The position numbers and the translations under genes are program-made. This document shows, piece by piece, positions 2,520-12,875 of a stretch of DNA of 24,945 nucleotides. The first letter of the stretch is position 1, and each line of letters begins with the position of its first letter. The DNA is from a virus. The notes below the pieces were generated by a model. It did not search any database, had not been told where the DNA came from, and was given only the letters and a program-made list of their open reading frames with translations. Where the stretch lies: the IMG/VR virus record IMGVR_UViG_3300020182_000177, positions 1 to 24,945 of that record, one strand, 5' to 3'.

Positions 2520-3305
2520 ATGGAACGCAAGGGTTTCATAGGTGGTTCCGACTGCGTAAGAATAATGCAGGGGAACTGGCTGGAGTTATGGCAAGTTAAG
2601 ACTGGTAGGGTTGAGCCCGAAGATCTGTCTCGCAACATTGCTGTGCAGATGGGCGTTTACACTGAGGACTTTAATCTAGGGTGGTTTGCCAGTGAGTATG
2701 ACTGCACTCTGACATGGTTCCAGAAATCATTTGAAGAAGTGATTGGATCAGTCCCGGTTAAAGGTACAATAGATGCTGCCGTTGGTGACTCTATCGAGGA
2801 CTCTATTGTAGAGGCCAAGCACACCAACTCTTATAATACTTTGGATAAAGTTATCGAGTATTACATGCCGCAGCTACAGCTGTATATACATTTAGCTAAA
2901 GCTAACGGGGCTCACATCTCCGTTATCTTTGGCAACAACAAATGGGAGTCAGCATATGTCAAACGCAACGAAGAGTATTTCAATTCTATGTGGGCAGTGG
3001 TGTCGGATTTCTGGGGTTACGTGCTTCGCGATGAAGAGCCAGTTGGTAATAACCAGCCGATACAACTTAGCATTGACAAGGTGTCGGTGGACAACATGGT
3101 CAAGCGCAACGCCACAAGTGACAACCAATTTGTGGATGCCGCTATTACATACATAGAAAACGAAGCAGCAGCTAAGACATTTGAGTCAGCCAAAAAACAA
3201 ATCAAAGACATGGTTGGCGACAATGAACGTGAAGTTTACTGCGATCAACTCACAGCTAAACGTGACAAACGCGGAGCCATCCGCATAACAAGGAGAACAA
3301 CATGA
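2520..3305 (+). CDS. YqaJ-like phage exonuclease (PD-(D/E)XK nuclease)
   Basis: This 261-residue protein starts at ATG 2520 with a strong SD. The N-terminus RKGFIGGSDCVRIMQGNW is the YqaJ-type opening, followed by LELWQVKTGR. Candidate active-site residues are E49 (in GVYTEDFN), D85 (GTIDAAV) and E98-x-K100 (IVEAKHT), the last two forming the D...ExK core. The YMPQLQLYIHL helix (residues 115-125) is the usual YqaJ/lambda-Exo Q-containing helix. Such enzymes resect double-stranded ends 5' to 3', leaving single strands for an annealing protein. The C-terminal third is helical and basic, ending ITRRTT. The next gene, an ERF annealase, starts inside its stop (ATGA at 3302), the classic exonuclease plus annealase pair. 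All core residues are present. Confidence 0.88.
   Translation: MERKGFIGGSDCVRIMQGNWLELWQVKTGRVEPEDLSRNIAVQMGVYTEDFNLGWFASEYDCTLTWFQKSFEEVIGSVPVKGTIDAAVGDSIEDSIVEAKHTNSYNTLDKVIEYYMPQLQLYIHLAKANGAHISVIFGNNKWESAYVKRNEEYFNSMWAVVSDFWGYVLRDEEPVGNNQPIQLSIDKVSVDNMVKRNATSDNQFVDAAITYIENEAAAKTFESAKKQIKDMVGDNEREVYCDQLTAKRDKRGAIRITRRTT
3290..3301 (+). promoter_or_regulatory. repeated ribosome-binding cassette, copy 3 (inside exonuclease 3' end)
   Basis: AAGGAGAACAAC precedes the ERF ATG at 3302. Here the SD also encodes the last residues of the exonuclease (TRRTT), so the cassette is kept despite coding constraint. Confidence 0.65.
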
Positions 3306-3742
3306 GTGATACAGCAATCAAGGCGCTACTCAAAGCGCAGCAAGCTATGGAATCTGTAAAAAAAGATAGCGTGAACCCACACTTCAAGAACAGATACGCT
3401 TCTCTCGATGCAGTAATTGACGCTACGTTAAGCGTGTTCCAAGACAACGGGTTCGTAGTCATGCAGCCCTGTGGTCGTGACGAGCTGGGTGTGTATGTAG
3501 AAACAAAGCTACTTCACACCTCAGGAGAAGCCTTCTCAAGCAAGGTTTACCTAGTCTTGAGTAAACAGGACATGCAGGGCTTAGGCAGCGCTATAACATA
3601 CGCTAGACGCTACGGTTTGCTAGGTATGGCTTGCCTTGCAACAGAAGATGATGACGGCAACATAGCCGCCAAGCAATCGAGCGGTGTTCAAGTCACAAAG
3701 GGCTTAACGTCAGGAGATACATCCGCACCGAGTGGATGGTAA
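3302..3742 (+). CDS. ERF-family single-strand annealing protein
   Basis: This 146-residue protein is coupled to the exonuclease stop. ERF family hallmarks are visible: AIKALLKAQQAMESVKKDS, then NPHFKNRYASLDAVIDA (residues 25-41), GFVVMQP, LLHTSGE, and SKQDMQGLGSAITYARRYGL (87-106) followed by LGMACLATEDDDGN. The 'GSAxTYARRYxLxxxxxLxxEDDDGN' stretch is the most diagnostic segment of ERF (Essential Recombination Function, P22-type) annealases. These coat single strands exposed by the partner exonuclease and anneal complementary strands. The C-terminal tail (QSSGVQVTKGLTSGDTSAPSGW) is flexible, as usual. The protein is short but complete compared with P22 Erf, lacking the longer C-terminal domain. 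Confidence 0.92.
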   Translation: MSDTAIKALLKAQQAMESVKKDSVNPHFKNRYASLDAVIDATLSVFQDNGFVVMQPCGRDELGVYVETKLLHTSGEAFSSKVYLVLSKQDMQGLGSAITYARRYGLLGMACLATEDDDGNIAAKQSSGVQVTKGLTSGDTSAPSGW

Positions 3743-3868
3743 GAATTGCAGAGGGTTAAAGTAGTATGGGTTCCTATGCCCGGTTTCAACTATCTTTAAT
3801 TTTGCAGCATGAACGAGGTGGCATGTTCTGCGAACCGCCTCACTAACTTAATCAAAGGAGCCAGAAGC
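3743..3868 (+). promoter_or_regulatory. leader of the SSB-like gene with a hairpin and a 26-codon ORF
   Basis: This is the longest gap in the left operon. It holds an inverted repeat, GAGGTGG (3815-3821) against CCGCCTC (3835-3841), seven pairs including one G-U with a 13-nt loop and no T-run. A 26-codon frame runs from ATG 3766 to TAA 3844-3846 (it includes LQHERGGMFCEPPH) and ends just past the hairpin. A loose AGAGGG lies before its ATG. Either a leader peptide or an attenuator-like structure is possible. I see no strong promoter. Confidence 0.3.
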
Positions 3869-4240
3869 ATGGCAGAACAATACGACGACACTAACCGAGG
3901 CGCAGCCTTCACCCCATTCCCTACGCAGCAGATGATCCTGCAAGGCAAGCTCAACGTCGAGGGCGCAGATAAAAAGGTGATGCTGGTGCGCGACCAAACC
4001 CGTGATGGCAAGCAGATCATTGAGGTCTACGAAAAAGCAGGGACTTTCTTTGAGAACGATAAGAAAGGGAACGAGTCAGCTCCTGATTACAGCGGCCCAT
4101 TTGGTGACAGCAAACGCCTTGCGGGATGGAAGAAGATGAAAGATGGTAAACCTTATATGTCATTCCAAGTGAGCGACAAGATGTCGGGAAACGCAGCGCC
4201 AACAACCGACCCCTTGCAAGGTGATGACATACCGTTCTAG
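3869..4240 (+). CDS. ssb: SSB-like protein with DDIPF C-terminal tip
   Basis: I place the start at ATG 3869 because AAAGGAG lies 8 nt upstream. An in-frame ATG at 3809 would add 20 residues with no SD. The 123-residue protein begins EQYDDTNRGAAF and has a beta-rich middle (LQGKLNVEGADKKVMLVRD, KQIIEVYEKAGTFF, LAGWKKMKDGKPYMSFQVSD) of OB-like character. It ends LQGDDIPF. The DDIPF ending is the acidic tip by which bacterial SSB recruits partner proteins. Residues 81-103 also resemble the DUF736-type 'aWkk...kpYlsfkv' pattern. Together with the upstream exonuclease and annealase, this points to phage ssDNA binding during recombination or replication. The fold is inferred; the tip is directly visible. 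A strong terminator follows 25 bp after the stop. Confidence 0.75.
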   Translation: MAEQYDDTNRGAAFTPFPTQQMILQGKLNVEGADKKVMLVRDQTRDGKQIIEVYEKAGTFFENDKKGNESAPDYSGPFGDSKRLAGWKKMKDGKPYMSFQVSDKMSGNAAPTTDPLQGDDIPF

Positions 4241-7153: not shown

Positions 7154-7615
7154 TTACGGCTTAGTCGGCCAGTCGCTATCAGACAAATTTGGCCAGTTAG
7201 CATGGCTTGTTATATCACGAAGCGCTTGACGATGGCTAGTCATCGCCGCGTCCATAGTCACATCTGTAAGCGCAAAGTAATCAGTGTCAGCCAACAGCTC
7301 ATTACGTTTGTTGCGGTTATTTGTAGCAGCCTCTACATCGTTAGCTGCAATCTCTTCCGCACTTAGATCAACCACCGTGCGTGTCAGCACCCAGTCATTA
7401 CCACTTTGAGTTGGTGTTGTGGCTGTTGTGACTTTCTGTGTCAGCGGGTTATAGTCAGGCGCTGCCTCTGTTGTGACAGGCTTCATGCCGTATCGGCTCA
7501 TAACGTCTACTGAAACATTTCTTGGAAATGATACGTTACGATTGTCACGGCGCAACTGGCCCACTGAATATGGGTACTGAGCTACTGTTCCGTTTGTTAT
7601 TTTAACATAGTTCAT
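7154..7615 (-). CDS. tail fibre assembly chaperone-like protein
   Basis: This 153-residue protein has an SD GGAGG 7-8 nt before ATG 7615. The C-terminal third, RNELLADTDYFALTD followed by SHRQALRDITSHANWPNL and DSDWPTKP, matches the 'R..LL..TDw.al.D......w..YRqaLRDit....fP....WP..P' signature of phage tail-assembly chaperone domains (PF16778-like). The N-terminal part YVKITNGTVAQYPYSVGQLRRD is likewise typical. Such proteins assist folding or trimerisation of fibres, or are attached to them. Its place directly after the fibre-tip genes agrees with this. Confidence 0.8.
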   Translation of the reverse strand: MNYVKITNGTVAQYPYSVGQLRRDNRNVSFPRNVSVDVMSRYGMKPVTTEAAPDYNPLTQKVTTATTPTQSGNDWVLTRTVVDLSAEEIAANDVEAATNNRNKRNELLADTDYFALTDVTMDAAMTSHRQALRDITSHANWPNLSDSDWPTKP

Positions 7616-7625
7616 TTATTCCCTC

Positions 7626-8201
7626 CTAGGAAATGACATCTAAATAAAAGTTTAGTGTTCCTATCGTCGCGCCAGACCGCGCTTCATAATAGCTAAAGGT
7701 TGGGCTTGAACTTAAAGTAACCTCTGGACCCCGCAACCAAAAAGGCGTGTTAGGAAAGCCATCACCAGTTGTTTCTGCGTACAAATAAAAACTACCGTCT
7801 GCCGCGTCTGTTCGACCAGTGCCAGTGCTGGCAGTGCCGCCTGAGTCACGGCTAAATCGAGGGGAGGCACTAGCTGTTGTTGGGACTCCCATCCAATTTA
7901 CGCTATTGTAGTTGCTGGTTTCAGCACTACTTGTTACCCATCCTGTAGTGTTAGTTTCAAAGCTGTAGGAAGTTCCATCCACATCAATAGCGTCTAGCTG
8001 AATGTCTCCTGTGTAACTACTCCCACTAACGTAGTAAAAAACGGGCTTTACTGTAGCCCCCGCATAGGCGCTAATATCAACTGTGCGCTGAGACCAAGCA
8101 TTATTCACCCCAGATACTGAGTCTAAAGAGTCTGAAAGTCCCAACTCATAAAGAAGCTCACCCCTACTACTCAAGCCCATCATCATTGCTAGATTACTCA
8201 T
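7626..8201 (-). CDS. MAM-like / jelly-roll tail adhesin component
   Basis: The 191-residue, beta-rich and Ser/Thr/Gly-rich protein is coupled to the upstream fibre-tip gene by ATGA (8198-8201). The N-terminal half has AWSQRTVDISAYAGATVKPV and GDIQLDAIDVDG, a pattern of galactose-binding or jelly-roll-like phage adhesin domains. The C-terminal half has TDAADGSFYLYAETTGDG and the block LRGPEVTLSSSPTFSYYEAR SGATIGTLNFYLDV, close to the MAM domain pattern 'G.fyLyaE.........L.SP.......l.F.y...g...G.L.vyl'. The protein ends right after that last strand, so the MAM-like domain may be shortened. A role in host surface binding on the fibre tip is inferred from domain type and position. Confidence 0.65.
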   Translation of the reverse strand: MSNLAMMMGLSSRGELLYELGLSDSLDSVSGVNNAWSQRTVDISAYAGATVKPVFYYVSGSSYTGDIQLDAIDVDGTSYSFETNTTGWVTSSAETSNYNSVNWMGVPTTASASPRFSRDSGGTASTGTGRTDAADGSFYLYAETTGDGFPNTPFWLRGPEVTLSSSPTFSYYEARSGATIGTLNFYLDVIS

Positions 8202-8560
8202 GATACTGCATCTCCTGCTTGCTTAGCGTAGTAGGTAGTACCACCATCAATTGTTACGAATGTGTAAACATCCTTCTCGCTTGCTGCTGGTGCATCTGGG
8301 GCTATACCCCCTGACCATTTAACACTACTAGGCCATGTAATAGTGTAAGTGGACGCACCAATAATTTCTAACGCAAAGCTGCCAGCATTACCTGACACTG
8401 GCGGGTTGCTGAAGGTAAACGTGGTGCTAGCCGATAAGGTCTTGGTGAAGTAACTACCAGAAGACATATCTACATCACTGGCTGCTACTGCTGCACTACT
8501 CTGCAAATACCTAGTGGCACTCAACCCGTTCTTAATCTTAAAAGTTTTATCGTTAGCCAT
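8198..8560 (-). CDS. fibre-tip protein, minimal form without propeller
   Basis: The 120-residue protein has the N-terminal tag MANDKTFKIKNGLSATRYL, then the beta module MSSGSYFTKTLSASTTFTFS, FALEIIGASTYTITWPSSVK, WSGGIAPDAPAASEKDVYTF and TIDGGTTYYAK. The same tag and module occur in the two upstream genes, which additionally carry a five-repeat propeller. So this is the basic unit of a three-gene paralogous set. The tag may dock the protein to the fibre or baseplate and the module may trimerise or bind the receptor; both are inference. SD GGAG precedes the ATG. Confidence 0.75.
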   Translation of the reverse strand: MANDKTFKIKNGLSATRYLQSSAAVAASDVDMSSGSYFTKTLSASTTFTFSNPPVSGNAGSFALEIIGASTYTITWPSSVKWSGGIAPDAPAASEKDVYTFVTIDGGTTYYAKQAGDAVS

Positions 8561-8574
8561 GCTTCAATCTCCAC

Positions 8575-9747
8575 TTAGCTAAATGCAAAAACAGATGGAA
8601 CACCAAAGTATGTCGTGCCGCCATCGTCTGTTGTTATTGTGTACAGGTCTTTCTGACCACTTGCAGGGCTAGAAGGTGCTGTACCTCCTGCCCATTCAAT
8701 AGAAGAAGGCCATGTAATTGTAACGGTCGAAGAAGGTGTTATTTCTAGCTGAAACGTCTGCACATCACCCGGATTGCTGAAAGCATAATTTACGTTTGCG
8801 CTGGGCGTATGCGTGAAGTAGTTGCCTGTATGTATGTCGAAGGTGGCTGTGTTTACAGTGGAACCCGTGGAGTATTGGTAGATTTTGTCACCCGTGCTTC
8901 CCGCTATATACATTTTAGTATTATCATTGTTGAAGACTATGCTCAAAGGATTAGCATCTTGGGCAGATACTGAAAGTAAAATGTTGTCGTAAGAAGCTGT
9001 ACTTATGTCATAAGCTGTAGATAGAGAATACTGATAAATAGTTTTAGTGGTACTTCCAAGGTAATATAACTTAGTACCATCACCATTAAAGGCCACGCTC
9101 CTACCCGCGGTGTCCCTACTAGATGCGTCTAAGCTAGCATTGTCATACGAAGCTGTACTTATGTCATAAGCTGTAGATAAAGAGTACTGGAATATGGTGT
9201 CAGAGGACCAAGAGACCACATAAACCTTAGTGCCATCTGGCTTGAAGGTTACAGAGGAAGTACTCGTAGACTGAGTACCTACACTAAAGCTAACACTATC
9301 GTAGGAAATTGTACTTAGGTCATAAGCTGTAGATAAGGAGTACTGATAAATAATATTACCACTCCCAACTAAATACATTTTAGTACCATTATTGTTGAAG
9401 CTTATTTCTCTAGGCGAAATTTCTTGGCTAGATACACTAAAGCTAACACTATCATAACTTGCGCTACTAACATTAAAAGCCGCAGACAACGAATATTGAT
9501 ACACAGTGTCGCTTGATTCTCCCAATACATACATTTTAGTACCGTAGTTGTTAAAAATTACACTATTAGGAGTAGAATCTTCTGTGCTAACATTTTTAAA
9601 TATGCCGATAATTCCGTAAGACCATGTTGAGGCATCATCGGAAGAAACAGTTACGCTATCAGTAGCAGGGGCATCACCGATAGTAACTTTAGTGCTACCA
9701 CCAACTTCAATGGCGTTCTTTAAAACAAAGTCTTTATCGTTAGCCAT
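8575..9747 (-). CDS. fibre-tip protein with five-repeat beta-propeller inserted before the core module
   Basis: The 390-residue protein has tag MANDKDFVLKNAIEVGGSTK (1-20), then five repeats of 51-52 residues. Their GTKMY-type strands begin at about 69, 121, 172, 224 and 276 (last one NTKMY), each followed by a (T/I)(I/V)YQYSL strand and an (A/T)AYD(I/L)STASYD turn. After the propeller the core module is intact: FDIHTGNYFTHTPSANVNYA, FQLEITPSSTVTITWPSSIE, WAGGTAPSSP and DDGGTTYFG (303-382). The repeats look like WD40/YVTN-like propeller blades and are probably used for binding. Start is coupled to the upstream stop (TAATG at 9747). DNA of neighbouring repeats is partly identical over 31 bp. 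Confidence 0.8.
   Translation of the reverse strand: MANDKDFVLKNAIEVGGSTKVTIGDAPATDSVTVSSDDASTWSYGIIGIFKNVSTEDSTPNSVIFNNYGTKMYVLGESSDTVYQYSLSAAFNVSSASYDSVSFSVSSQEISPREISFNNNGTKMYLVGSGNIIYQYSLSTAYDLSTISYDSVSFSVGTQSTSTSSVTFKPDGTKVYVVSWSSDTIFQYSLSTAYDISTASYDNASLDASSRDTAGRSVAFNGDGTKLYYLGSTTKTIYQYSLSTAYDISTASYDNILLSVSAQDANPLSIVFNNDNTKMYIAGSTGDKIYQYSTGSTVNTATFDIHTGNYFTHTPSANVNYAFSNPGDVQTFQLEITPSSTVTITWPSSIEWAGGTAPSSPASGQKDLYTITTDDGGTTYFGVPSVFAFS
8993..9179 (-). repeat. identical 31-bp DNA segments between propeller repeats
   Basis: Positions 8993-9023 and 9149-9179 are identical on the + strand. They start GAAGCTGTACTTATGTC and continue through ATAAGCTGTAGATA. They are 156 bp (52 codons) apart, and a near copy lies a further ~156 bp on, near 9310-9335. 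Identity at the DNA level in diverged repeats suggests recent unit duplication or gene conversion. Confidence 0.75.
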
Positions 9748-10913
9748 TACTTAGCTCCATCTATTGCAAGCATTGCTTGGTAGGATGTACCACCGTCACG
9801 GGTACTGAACGCCAGAACGTCTGTTTCATTAGCTAAAGGGCTGTCTGGGGCTGTGCCACCGTTGAACTGTACGGCGCTGTTGTAAGTAATTGTATGTGCT
9901 CCACCGATATAAAACTGATGTACTGAATTAGTACTAAAAGAAGCTGCGTACAACTTTTTCCCATCAGAGCTAATTGCTATATTAGTAATATATGAAGTTG
10001 CGTCAGAAGGATCTAAGCTAACATTATTATAAGAGGCTGTGCTTAAATCAAATGCTGTCGTAAAAATATATTCATGTATTTCATCAGGGTATCCACTAAC
10101 ATACATTTTCGTACCATCGTCGTTAAATACCATTGACCTTGGCTGTCCCATTTCATTAAATACGTTGAGGCTATTAGTGCTATACGTAGCCGTGCTTAAA
10201 TCAAATGCTGTCGTAAGATTATATTCAAAAATACTATTATTTTGATCGCCAGCAAGAAAAAGCTTTGTGCCATTATTATTAAAATTGAAACCGAGTGGTG
10301 AGGTGTCTTGACTGCCTACAGTTCTGGTAACAGTATCATAACTTGCGGTGCTTACATCGAAATTTGTTGTTAAGGAATACTGATATATAGTGTCAGTATC
10401 AGTTCCAACTATGTACATTTTAGAACCGTCGTTATTAAACTTTACGTCTCGAGGTTGTCCATCTTCTGTGCCAACATTTTTAAATTTTTCATCATAGCTT
10501 GCGGTATTTATTTCATAAGGCGATGATAAACTATACTGATATACAGTGTCATTGACTATACCAACGGCATACATTTTGGTTCCATCAGGCTTAAATGTCA
10601 TACTCGACAAAGCGGAAACGGCAAGTTCATCACTTACATCAAAAGATTTATTGTCGTAGGAACCATTACCTAAATCGTACCCGGGGCCATCAATTGCTTC
10701 ACCTATAAAAACAGTTGCTTGGCTTATCGTCCCACTAGGTGCAGGGTTGCTAAAAGTTACTTCAATATCTGACGGCGCAGTAACTTCAAACACTGAACCA
10801 GTAGATAAGTCTAATGTAGCAACACCACCTGAAACAGTGACTGTACCAAAGCCCTCATGATAAGCCGTTGGCTGAATACCGTTCTTTACTTTAAAGTCTT
10901 TATTGTTTGACAT
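9747..10913 (-). CDS. fibre-tip protein with five-repeat beta-propeller inserted inside the core module
   Basis: The 388-residue protein has tag MSNNKDFKVKNGIQPTAYHE (1-20), then the first half of the core module (TLDLSTGSVFEVTAPSDIEV to ATVFIGEA, 33-73). Five repeats of 51-52 residues follow, with GTKMY-type strands near 111, 163, 215, 267 and 318. The second half of the module comes last (HTITYNSAVQFNGGTAPDSP, then TRDGGTSYQAML, 340-382). So the propeller splits the module, unlike in the downstream paralogue. The repeats show strands VYQYSLS, IYQYSLT, IFEYNLT, IHEYIFT and VHQFYIG. Expected location: distal part of the tail fibre, with receptor binding inferred. SD GAAAGGTG precedes the ATG. 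Confidence 0.8.
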   Translation of the reverse strand: MSNNKDFKVKNGIQPTAYHEGFGTVTVSGGVATLDLSTGSVFEVTAPSDIEVTFSNPAPSGTISQATVFIGEAIDGPGYDLGNGSYDNKSFDVSDELAVSALSSMTFKPDGTKMYAVGIVNDTVYQYSLSSPYEINTASYDEKFKNVGTEDGQPRDVKFNNDGSKMYIVGTDTDTIYQYSLTTNFDVSTASYDTVTRTVGSQDTSPLGFNFNNNGTKLFLAGDQNNSIFEYNLTTAFDLSTATYSTNSLNVFNEMGQPRSMVFNDDGTKMYVSGYPDEIHEYIFTTAFDLSTASYNNVSLDPSDATSYITNIAISSDGKKLYAASFSTNSVHQFYIGGAHTITYNSAVQFNGGTAPDSPLANETDVLAFSTRDGGTSYQAMLAIDGAK

Positions 10914-10940: not shown

Positions 10941-12875
10941 TTAGGCTAAGATTACTGCGTTCACCGTAAAGTTAGTCGAGTTAGTTGATGCAGCAGTCGC
11001 CAGTATGCGCACATTGCCACCGCTAATATCAACGTCATAAGACGCAATAGCTGTGTTAGTGTTAACCTCACCATACTGCGTGGCAACGGCAGTTGTGCCA
11101 TCATGTGTTACAAGAAGCTTTGTAATCGTGCGTTCTGTCGCAACGGTGTCAGTCGCAATAACAGTGATTTCAACTCCCAAAGATGCAGACGCAGTATAAG
11201 TTGCAATCGCAGTCTCAGTGACACTTGTAGTTGTAGCAGTCTGAATATCACCGCTACCACCAATGGCCCCCCAAGCCCCGTCAGCGTATCCCTCAAAAGC
11301 AGCATCGTCGCTGTTGTAACGGAGCATCCCATTTGCAGGGGTTGGGCGTTGGGCTGTAGTGCCAGAGGGCAAGCTAATAGCTTCATCATTTGAAGAAAGA
11401 TCAACCGTAAATCCATTGCCATCTAAATCACCTCCAAGCTGCGGAGTGCTGTCTTCCGCAACAGAAGTAAGTCCGGGCGCAATGGTTTCCCAGCTTGTGC
11501 CGTTGTAATACTTGAGTAACGAGCTTGTCGTGTTAAATGCAAGATCCCCAGCATCAAGGCTAGTAGATGGGTCTGAACTTTCCACTCGGTAGCGTTCAGC
11601 AAAGGTATTAACATCCGTAATATTTGCGGCAACCGTAGTCACGTTAGCTGATATACCTGCAACCGTGGTTACATTGGCAGAAATACCAGCGACCGTTGTA
11701 ACATTCGCGCTTACCCCTGCAACCGAAGTAACGTCAGAGCTAATACCAGCAACCGCTCCAATGTCAGTTCCGTCTGCTGCAACAGTAGTAACATCTGCAC
11801 TAATACCTGACACAATAGCAACGTCAGAGCTTACACCAGCAACCGCAGTCACGTTAGCTGAGATTCCCGCAACAATCCCAATATCTGTTCCGTCAGCAGC
11901 GACTGTTGTAACGTCTGCGCTAATCCCAGCTACCGTAGAAACATTACCAGAAATTCCTGCAACCGTTGTAACGTCAGAAGTAACACCGGCAACGCTAGTT
12001 ACGTTAGCAGAAATCCCAGCAACCGAAGTAACATCACCCGAGACACCAGCAACAGTAGTTACATTGCTAGATATTCCAGCGACCGTAGTTATATTAGCGT
12101 CATTATTAGCGGCTGTGGTTACGTCTGAGCTGATTCCAGCAAGCGTTGTAACATCTGACGATATTCCAGACACTGTGGTTACGTTTGCTGATATACCAGC
12201 AACAGTAGTTACATTAGAGGAAACGCCTGAGACTGTAGTAATATCAGAAGATATTGGGCCTAACGTTGATATATGTGTACGAACATTATTTACGTTTGTA
12301 ATGGCATTAGTTGCAGTCGTACCGTCTTCAATATCTGCAAGCAAAGCAATGTCGGCGCTTACGTTTGAAAGGCTTTGAACATCTGCAATTTTAGGGCCAA
12401 CCTCTACGTTTCCTGACGTAGCATTGAAGCCAAGGACTGTGCCTTTTCGGTCATCTAGTAAGGGAAGGGTGTAAGAAGCTGTTGCGTCTGAATCCGCTGC
12501 TCGTATAGATCGAATGGATTTGTCTTGTACGTCTGCGGCTATAGCAACGATACGATCTAGCTCTGTATTAAGAGCGCTAATTTGGAAGGGTCCAGACGTT
12601 GGAAAGTCTGTTGTTCTTTCAAGTGGTATTTCTCTAGTAATAACTACAGTCGATCCGCCTGATGCACCAGTTACAGATATTAAGACTGAACCTGTAGTCC
12701 CGTTGCCACCTGTAGTAGTGTAATCTGTAGTTAAAGTCTTTAAAACACTGTCTACATATACATTCAAACTTTCTTCAGCAAAGAACTCAAACGGTACTGT
12801 AAACGTAGATTGAACTACACCCGCAGCTACCGAATAGGATATTCGCGGAGAGTTATCAGAAAGATTGATCGTCAT
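10941..12875 (-). CDS. tail fibre protein, T7 gp17-type N-terminus with decapeptide repeats
   Basis: The 644-residue protein has an N-terminal region of about 115 residues (RISYSVAAGVVQSTFTVPFE, NVYVDSVLK, TVVITREIPLERTTDFPTSG, LNTELDRIVAIAADVQD) that fits the T7 tail-fibre N-terminal domain (PF03906) attaching fibres to the tail. Residues 209-418 hold about 21 repeats of ten residues, consensus S(A/S)(N/D)VTTVAGI, likely a trimeric beta shaft. After that come fibre modules AGDLAFNTTSSLLKYYNGTS (W) and GMLRYNSDDAAFEGYADGAW, and a C-terminal beta domain ending in TNFTVNAVILA. SD AAGGA lies upstream of ATG 12875. The following genes encode tip proteins and a chaperone. It mediates host recognition by analogy with T7. 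Confidence 0.88.
   Translation of the reverse strand: MTINLSDNSPRISYSVAAGVVQSTFTVPFEFFAEESLNVYVDSVLKTLTTDYTTTGGNGTTGSVLISVTGASGGSTVVITREIPLERTTDFPTSGPFQISALNTELDRIVAIAADVQDKSIRSIRAADSDATASYTLPLLDDRKGTVLGFNATSGNVEVGPKIADVQSLSNVSADIALLADIEDGTTATNAITNVNNVRTHISTLGPISSDITTVSGVSSNVTTVAGISANVTTVSGISSDVTTLAGISSDVTTAANNDANITTVAGISSNVTTVAGVSGDVTSVAGISANVTSVAGVTSDVTTVAGISGNVSTVAGISADVTTVAADGTDIGIVAGISANVTAVAGVSSDVAIVSGISADVTTVAADGTDIGAVAGISSDVTSVAGVSANVTTVAGISANVTTVAGISANVTTVAANITDVNTFAERYRVESSDPSTSLDAGDLAFNTTSSLLKYYNGTSWETIAPGLTSVAEDSTPQLGGDLDGNGFTVDLSSNDEAISLPSGTTAQRPTPANGMLRYNSDDAAFEGYADGAWGAIGGSGDIQTATTTSVTETAIATYTASASLGVEITVIATDTVATERTITKLLVTHDGTTAVATQYGEVNTNTAIASYDVDISGGNVRILATAASTNSTNFTVNAVILA
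11622..12251 (-). repeat. 30-bp coding repeats (about 21 units) in the tail fibre
   Basis: Twenty-one consecutive 30-bp units encode the decapeptide S(A/S)(N/D)VTT(V)AGI. Most units are diverged at the DNA level but keep the period exactly. Two variants (AADGTDIG type) break the consensus at units 12-13 and 16-17, as a larger duplicated block of four units. This is coding sequence, not a CRISPR array: there are no unique spacers. Confidence 0.9.

Follow-up and report, generated by a model that had tools for sequence, protein, structure and literature searches.

The window analysed here is a 24,945-nucleotide stretch of viral DNA (positions 1 to 24,945 of IMG/VR record IMGVR_UViG_3300020182_000177), in which three adjacent minus-strand genes, here called A, B and C, repeat one small scaffold in which a putative docking tag is joined to a beta-sandwich-like module. 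This scaffold can accept domains at two fixed sites, slot 1 between the tag and the module and slot 2 within one of the module's hairpins. A carries a five-bladed propeller in slot 2, B carries one in slot 1, and C has both slots empty, while in related viral loci the same slots hold propellers or unrelated domains. We consider it likely that these genes form a modular receptor-binding (adhesin) array with cassette exchange, located beside the tail fibre gene of a marine podovirus-like phage. An earlier note on this DNA had read the locus as one scaffold with two insertion positions. That interpretation is partly supported: both positions are general in the family and also accept other domains, whereas the proposed ongoing exchange of repeat units and the extent assigned to the locus need amendment.

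The N-terminal tags read MSNNKDFKVKN in A, MANDKDFVLKN in B and MANDKTFKIKN in C. C aligns with B in a single piece (46% over 111 amino acids, E 3e-30) and with A in two pieces, A 1-61 (E 2e-11) and A 289-385 (E 2e-14), with the insert between them, which indicates that the module of A is split. Profiles of the two half-modules, divided in the hairpin between residues 69 and 70 of C, gave one clean match per half in all three proteins at E <= 1e-11. Half 1 falls at residues 32-70 of A, 302-339 of B and 28-69 of C; half 2 occupies residues 339-385 of A, 340-383 of B and 70-118 of C. The repeat cores are spaced by 51-52 residues in both filled proteins, starting at 111, 163, 215, 267 and 318 in A and at 69, 121, 172, 224 and 276 in B. 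These alignments and profiles bear out the earlier description of a tag and beta-module common to three neighbouring genes, with no insert in the 120-residue copy, five repeats of 51-52 residues between tag and intact module in the 390-residue copy, and five such repeats interrupting the module itself in the 388-residue copy. The module is also matched by the PHROG 9017 tail fiber protein profile (E 9.5e-15 for C, 6.6e-7 for B).

Judged by the profile E-values, together with relatives at the DNA level with and without the insert, the module similarity of A, B and C is far above chance. Circular permutation rather than insertion was rejected, half 1 preceding half 2 in all counted architectures, as was an assembly artefact, in-frame inserts being present in dozens of independent contigs. 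Paired blades also matched the module profile weakly (11-24 bits), which was taken as composition and not homology.

Models computed with AlphaFold2 (AF2) from family alignments of 37 and 29 sequences predict closed five-bladed propellers in A and B, with a mean predicted local distance difference test score (pLDDT) of 90 and 88, respectively. In A, four-strand blades are modelled at 102-146, 154-198, 206-250 and 257-300; we read the fifth blade as three strands (309-335) completed by strand 85-92, which would close the ring of five. B has the same blades, and its closing strand (50-52) is less certain. Foldseek matched WD40, YVTN and lactonase propellers (E about 1e-10 to 1e-12), and the Pfam Lactonase profile scored above its cut-off. 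The five-bladed propeller fold predicted from the sequence is thus upheld, the repeats forming a propeller in both models. The module strands of A (31-35, 41-46, 50-55, 64-72, then 342-344, 348-350, 364-371, 378-387) and of B (295-304, 310-313, 318-324, 330-336, 344-345, 350-352, 366-373, 380-389) agree strand for strand according to DSSP, so that the earlier equation of the modules holds for A and B at the level of strand order and sequence at which they were compared.

Table 1. Positions in the window of the three scaffold genes, their parts and the genes that flank them.
Feature	Position	Strand	Description
Gene A	9747-10913	minus	array position 1; 388 aa, composed of tag, first module half, slot-2 propeller with five blades, second module half
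A N-terminal tag MSNNKDFKVKNG	10878-10913	minus	common to B and C
A module half 1, residues 32-72	10698-10820	minus	profile match E 5e-12; AF2 strands 31-35, 41-46, 50-55, 64-72
A slot-2 propeller, residues 78-336	9906-10682	minus	predicted closing strand 85-92 and five blades
A module half 2, residues 339-385	9759-9899	minus	ends DGGTSY...; profile match E 9e-20
Gene B	8575-9747	minus	array position 2; 390 aa, composed of tag, slot-1 propeller with five blades, intact module
B slot-1 propeller, residues ~47-294	8866-9609	minus	repeats, AF2, Foldseek
B intact module, residues 302-383	8599-8844	minus	profile matches E 6e-17 and 3e-22
31-bp stretch in blade 4 of B	8993-9023	minus	identical to 9149-9179 (blade 3 of B)
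Gene C	8198-8560	minus	120 aa, empty scaffold: tag and module only; array position 3
C empty slot 2	8353-8354	minus	between residues 69 and 70 (...EIIGA / STYTITW...); relative L005 has a propeller there
Tail fibre gene	10941-12875	minus	644 aa; directly upstream of the array; PHROG tail fiber matches, pelagiphage tail fibre matches
Fourth array gene	7626-8201	minus	191 aa; second tag (MSNLAMMMGL) and free-standing MAM-like cassette
Phage_tail_APC / tail fibre assembly chaperone gene	7154-7615	minus	closes the array; PF16778 E 4e-9; PHROG 4912; conserved order

Six scans of IMG/VR yielded about 240 distinct loci after removal of overlaps, and the architectures were counted in 278 complete open reading frames that contain both module halves, deduplicated at 100% identity. 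Both slots were empty in 44 proteins; propellers filled slot 1 alone in 32, slot 2 alone in 35 and both slots in 53. A MAM-like domain occupied slot 1 with slot 2 either empty (7) or holding a propeller (2), and DUF7483 (PF24299, E down to 1e-64) was found in either slot: in slot 2 behind an empty slot 1 (7) or a slot-1 propeller (4), and in slot 1 with slot 2 empty (4) or carrying a propeller (1). Insert lengths fall in narrow ranges: 253-278 amino acids for propellers in slot 2, 310-334 for DUF7483 and about 0 when empty. In about 60 further proteins other N-terminal parts precede the module, which comes last. Blades come in groups of five (212) or ten (20), and the 16 other groups, mostly fours and threes, likely reflect missed or cut blades; ten-bladed inserts in slot 2 occur in one small group. 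These multiples of five indicate that the constraint for the ends to meet has been kept, and a closed propeller with meeting ends lends itself naturally to being inserted in a hairpin. Relatives with other domains or insert numbers, proposed earlier as something to look for, therefore exist in IMG/VR as DUF7483, MAM-like, doubly filled and ten-bladed forms.

The position of C in the array illustrates how a slot can be empty or filled. In locus L005, a C-like gene (2955-4100) at the same array position, with DNA identity of 87% over nt 1-206 and 85% over nt 238-360, contains a propeller of ~262 amino acids between ...EVTGA and ATITYPASVKW. A second filled C-like gene lies in L115 (2984-4141), and at the C position L198 and L197 combine a MAM-like domain in slot 1 with a propeller in slot 2.

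The cassettes themselves have a wider distribution. One protein of 1423 amino acids (L096, 541-4809) contains fifteen blades as three separate groups of five. The five-blade propeller family is common in Pelagibacteraceae and other marine bacterial genomes (L317-L395), nearly always without the phage module, and bacterial propellers of this blade family form groups of five in 37 of 46 cases. DUF7483 proteins occur in 62 phage records, many of them from phages infecting Pelagibacter, under the annotations hypothetical, "SPRY domain" or "SprT-like protease" (MT375525.1); names such as the last are probably wrong. DUF7483 matched no solved structure at E < 0.2, and a match of the MAM-like cassette to a scavenger receptor SR-C-like chain (E 0.006) hints at a MAM-type jelly roll. 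Literature searches returned nothing on DUF7483 and nothing relevant on marine phage tail propellers.

The distribution of propellers between the slots could also reflect two old insertions, one per slot and both inherited vertically, the apparent mixing being noise from fast repeat evolution and blade-to-blade conversion. The slot label would then be expected to cluster on the propeller tree. It needs 46 changes there, compared with 55.6 for shuffled labels, and at least five slot changes are forced by well-supported branches. The nearest propeller relative sits in the other slot in 58 of 131 cases below 65% identity and in 6 of 19 cases at 65-80%, such cross-slot pairs reaching 73% identity. 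On the scaffold tree, parsimony requires at least 28 changes of slot-2 occupancy (at least 11 forced) and 22 of slot-1 occupancy (at least 8 forced), and DUF7483, too, is found in both slots. What speaks for two insertions, namely a propeller tree in which 93 of 163 inner branches are open and only 8 of 163 are well supported, and the retention of the same slot by all 32 of 32 nearest-neighbour pairs at >=80% identity, does not outweigh these counts, and we regard this account as very improbable.

The same two observations weigh against our own reading of an array with exchangeable cassettes, and others add to them. The 32 of 32 pairs imply that slot changes are infrequent on short time scales; the scaffold tree was built on only 91 columns, so that, with both trees weakly resolved, the numbers of changes are indicative, and recombination within the scaffold may have raised the parsimony counts. 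The loci were fetched by similarity to the queries, which means that the architecture counts are not an unbiased census. A structure search found no solved-structure relative of the module at E < 0.2, and the N-terminal tag is unstructured in the models (pLDDT about 42-47), which makes its docking role a guess. Overall, the slot pattern fits repeated but not rapid exchange.

The variability of the propellers bears on their function. Over 1277 distinct blades the mean entropy (in bits) was 2.86 for the BC loop, 2.28 for strand A and 2.23 for the DA loop, as against 1.30 for the AB and 1.18 for the CD loop. In propellers the BC and DA loops lie on one face and the AB and CD loops on the other, which places the variation on one face and round the channel. 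The columns that are >=80% conserved across 166 propellers are framework residues recurring from blade to blade (F, DGTK, Y, LSTA, D, STAS). Since each conserved residue is repeated in all or nearly all blades or in most of them, none marks a single conserved catalytic site, and this, together with the variable face, favours a diversifying binding surface over a conserved enzyme. From the hypervariable face and the lack of a conserved catalytic residue we infer receptor binding, in which the propeller would most likely contact a host-surface ligand through the BC and DA loop face and the start of strand A.

Depolymerases are frequent among phage tail proteins, which lends support to a different function, with the propellers acting as lactonase- or depolymerase-like enzymes that degrade host surface polymers and the scaffold serving to position them. 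Both proteins exceed the score cut-off of the Pfam Lactonase family PF10282 (38.3 bits for A and 26.1 for B, compared with 21.7), and SGL and Lactonase were matched in 34 and 30 of 37 relatives of A. However, PF10282 describes seven-bladed propellers and those found here have five, the Pfam matches point to generic propeller repeats, and the channel-side positions are among the most variable. Among the 166 propellers, no polar residue is conserved in a single blade, as a catalytic site would need, and none of the blade-specific catalytic residues of the Lactonase type was found. An enzymatic role is therefore unlikely.

We give a similarly low probability to the inserts being structural spacers or tail decorations without a specific ligand. 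Empty scaffolds are common (the 44 proteins counted above) and well conserved (C is 88% identical to its relatives), which shows that the insert is dispensable in a given gene. Against a spacer role stand the concentration of diversity on one propeller face, the competition of unrelated folds for the same slots, and array fillings that vary far more than the neighbouring chaperone and empty-scaffold genes.

Under the favoured reading, that of a receptor-binding array, each acceptor site of the three scaffolds can stay empty or accommodate a cassette that is self-contained and has its two ends near each other. Closed five-bladed propellers and DUF7483 are found in both slots, and a MAM-like domain is seen in slot 1. 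The fourth gene presents these cassettes after a constant tag of its own. Recombination over evolutionary time would add, remove and move cassettes between the slots, and the array could thereby display several different binding surfaces simultaneously. A more far-reaching proposal, which we put forward only tentatively, is a dedicated system for diversifying host recognition, in which conserved sequences of the tag, module and linker act as homology handles for swapping propeller, DUF7483 and MAM-like cassettes. Such a system would build a combinatorial adhesin repertoire from a pool of cassettes shared with other phages and seven acceptor positions per genome, six of them the paired slots of the three scaffolds and the seventh the fourth gene.

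Exchange at the level of single blades was also suggested by the earlier note, on the basis of an exact 31-bp match between neighbouring repeats. The match is real, and blades 3 and 4 of B are the one pair in the window with elevated likeness, which is not striking. These blades are 71% identical in DNA over the in-register window, so the 31-bp match alone is no proof of recent exchange; their codon identity (0.71, n=21) falls inside the range of the remaining pairs. Ongoing exchange of units was thus not established for the window. The repeat-by-repeat DNA comparison gave a clearer signal in the family as a whole, where blade pairs with at least 0.8 nucleotide identity make up 10% of adjacent and 8% of non-adjacent pairs, 5% of pairs from different propellers of the same locus and 0.8% of pairs from different loci. 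Adjacency adds little, and the greater DNA likeness of blades within one propeller supports homogenisation or duplication of units in the family.

The array has a conserved order: the tail fibre gene, three scaffold positions, the fourth gene and the Phage_tail_APC chaperone gene. The extent originally given for the locus, 8198-10913, covers A, B and C and omits the fourth member. The window is filled, slot 1 before slot 2, as empty/propeller, propeller/empty and empty/empty, followed by the MAM-like cassette of the fourth gene. In relatives the tag of the fourth gene precedes a propeller, DUF7483, a MAM-like domain, an LVIVD-propeller or an Lcl_C lectin-like cassette. The LVIVD repeats (PF08309) form a different propeller in L115 (4141-5172), and the cassette of L079 (1236-1886) resembles the Lcl C-terminal domain (PF07603, E 6e-8, just under the cut-off) and is possibly lectin-like. 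Among 82 arrays that share no identical proteins there are 65 distinct fillings, a number that overstates the true configurations, as some arrays are cut by contig ends. A and B share base 9747, and C and the 191-residue gene overlap at 8198-8201; these overlapping start and stop codons suggest translational coupling of the array.

The closest named phage for the capsid protein of the window is Pelagibacter phage EXVC031P Hodr (52%), in which the annotated genes beside the presumed fibre gene include no comparable array of adhesin-sized genes. The fibre gene of the window matches tail fibres of pelagiphages and roseophages, and its product contains a long run of short repeats (ANVTTVAGIS...) mid-protein, also present in fibres of pelagiphages, cyanophages and roseophages. 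Gene order is what points to the location at the fibre tip that the earlier note had assumed. The host range of abundant marine phages is hard to predict when their adhesins are annotated as hypothetical, and a fixed scaffold with two acceptor sites and shared cassettes provides a grammar for recognising and comparing such adhesins. If the cassettes bind hosts, part swapping would let a virus change its host, and it becomes testable whether phages are retargeted by whole-domain swaps into pre-adapted slots rather than by point mutation.

The best match among isolates is gp51 of Lentibacter phage ICBM2 (AYP28110.1, a hypothetical protein; PMC6775973), which shows 38% identity over 93% of A and is the best viral fold match in Foldseek (E 7e-40). 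Like the genes of the window, it sits in a variable tail-fibre region; unlike them, it occurs once and has its own chaperone gene behind it, as part of a series of adhesin-chaperone pairs and not of an array of three scaffolds. In the genome of ICBM2 (L180, MF431616.1), whose laboratory host is Lentibacter sp. SH36, putative adhesin genes alternate with tail assembly chaperone genes three times. In the passages of the literature that were compared, the scaffold of A, B and C is not described.

Two known systems work on the same lines as the array of the window, which is a member of neither. In the five-bladed propeller of the φ11 receptor-binding protein Gp45 (PMC4901313; Pfam PF21311, Phage_RBD_prop), each blade has four strands and the closing strand is N-terminal, as in the propellers modelled here. 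These, unlike Gp45, are inserts in a beta-module. The φ11 type is a trimer that has a coiled-coil stem and a tower, and monomer models of A and B contain no stem helices; PF21311 matched neither A and B nor 36 relatives, its only sub-threshold match being E 0.026 in L082. Receptor-binding proteins of phages are known for mosaic domain shuffling (PMC10684548), whereas here domains are exchanged at two fixed positions of a scaffold that is itself repeated, and one of these positions lies within a folded module. The closest known principle is that of the evolved Dit and Tal proteins of siphophages, which carry one or two carbohydrate-binding modules in loops of tail proteins (PMC7291167). In both cases a conserved tail beta-scaffold takes up domains in its loops, here a module hairpin with an insert that would bind the host, and the same protein has a decorated and a bare form. 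Dit families are absent from the Pfam and PHROG matches of A, B and C. In contrast to evolved Dits, the scaffold described here is small (~90 amino acids), is repeated in three or more tandem paralogues, pairs a terminal slot with an internal one, and takes up at least three unrelated folds, of which DUF7483 and the propeller each occur in both slots.

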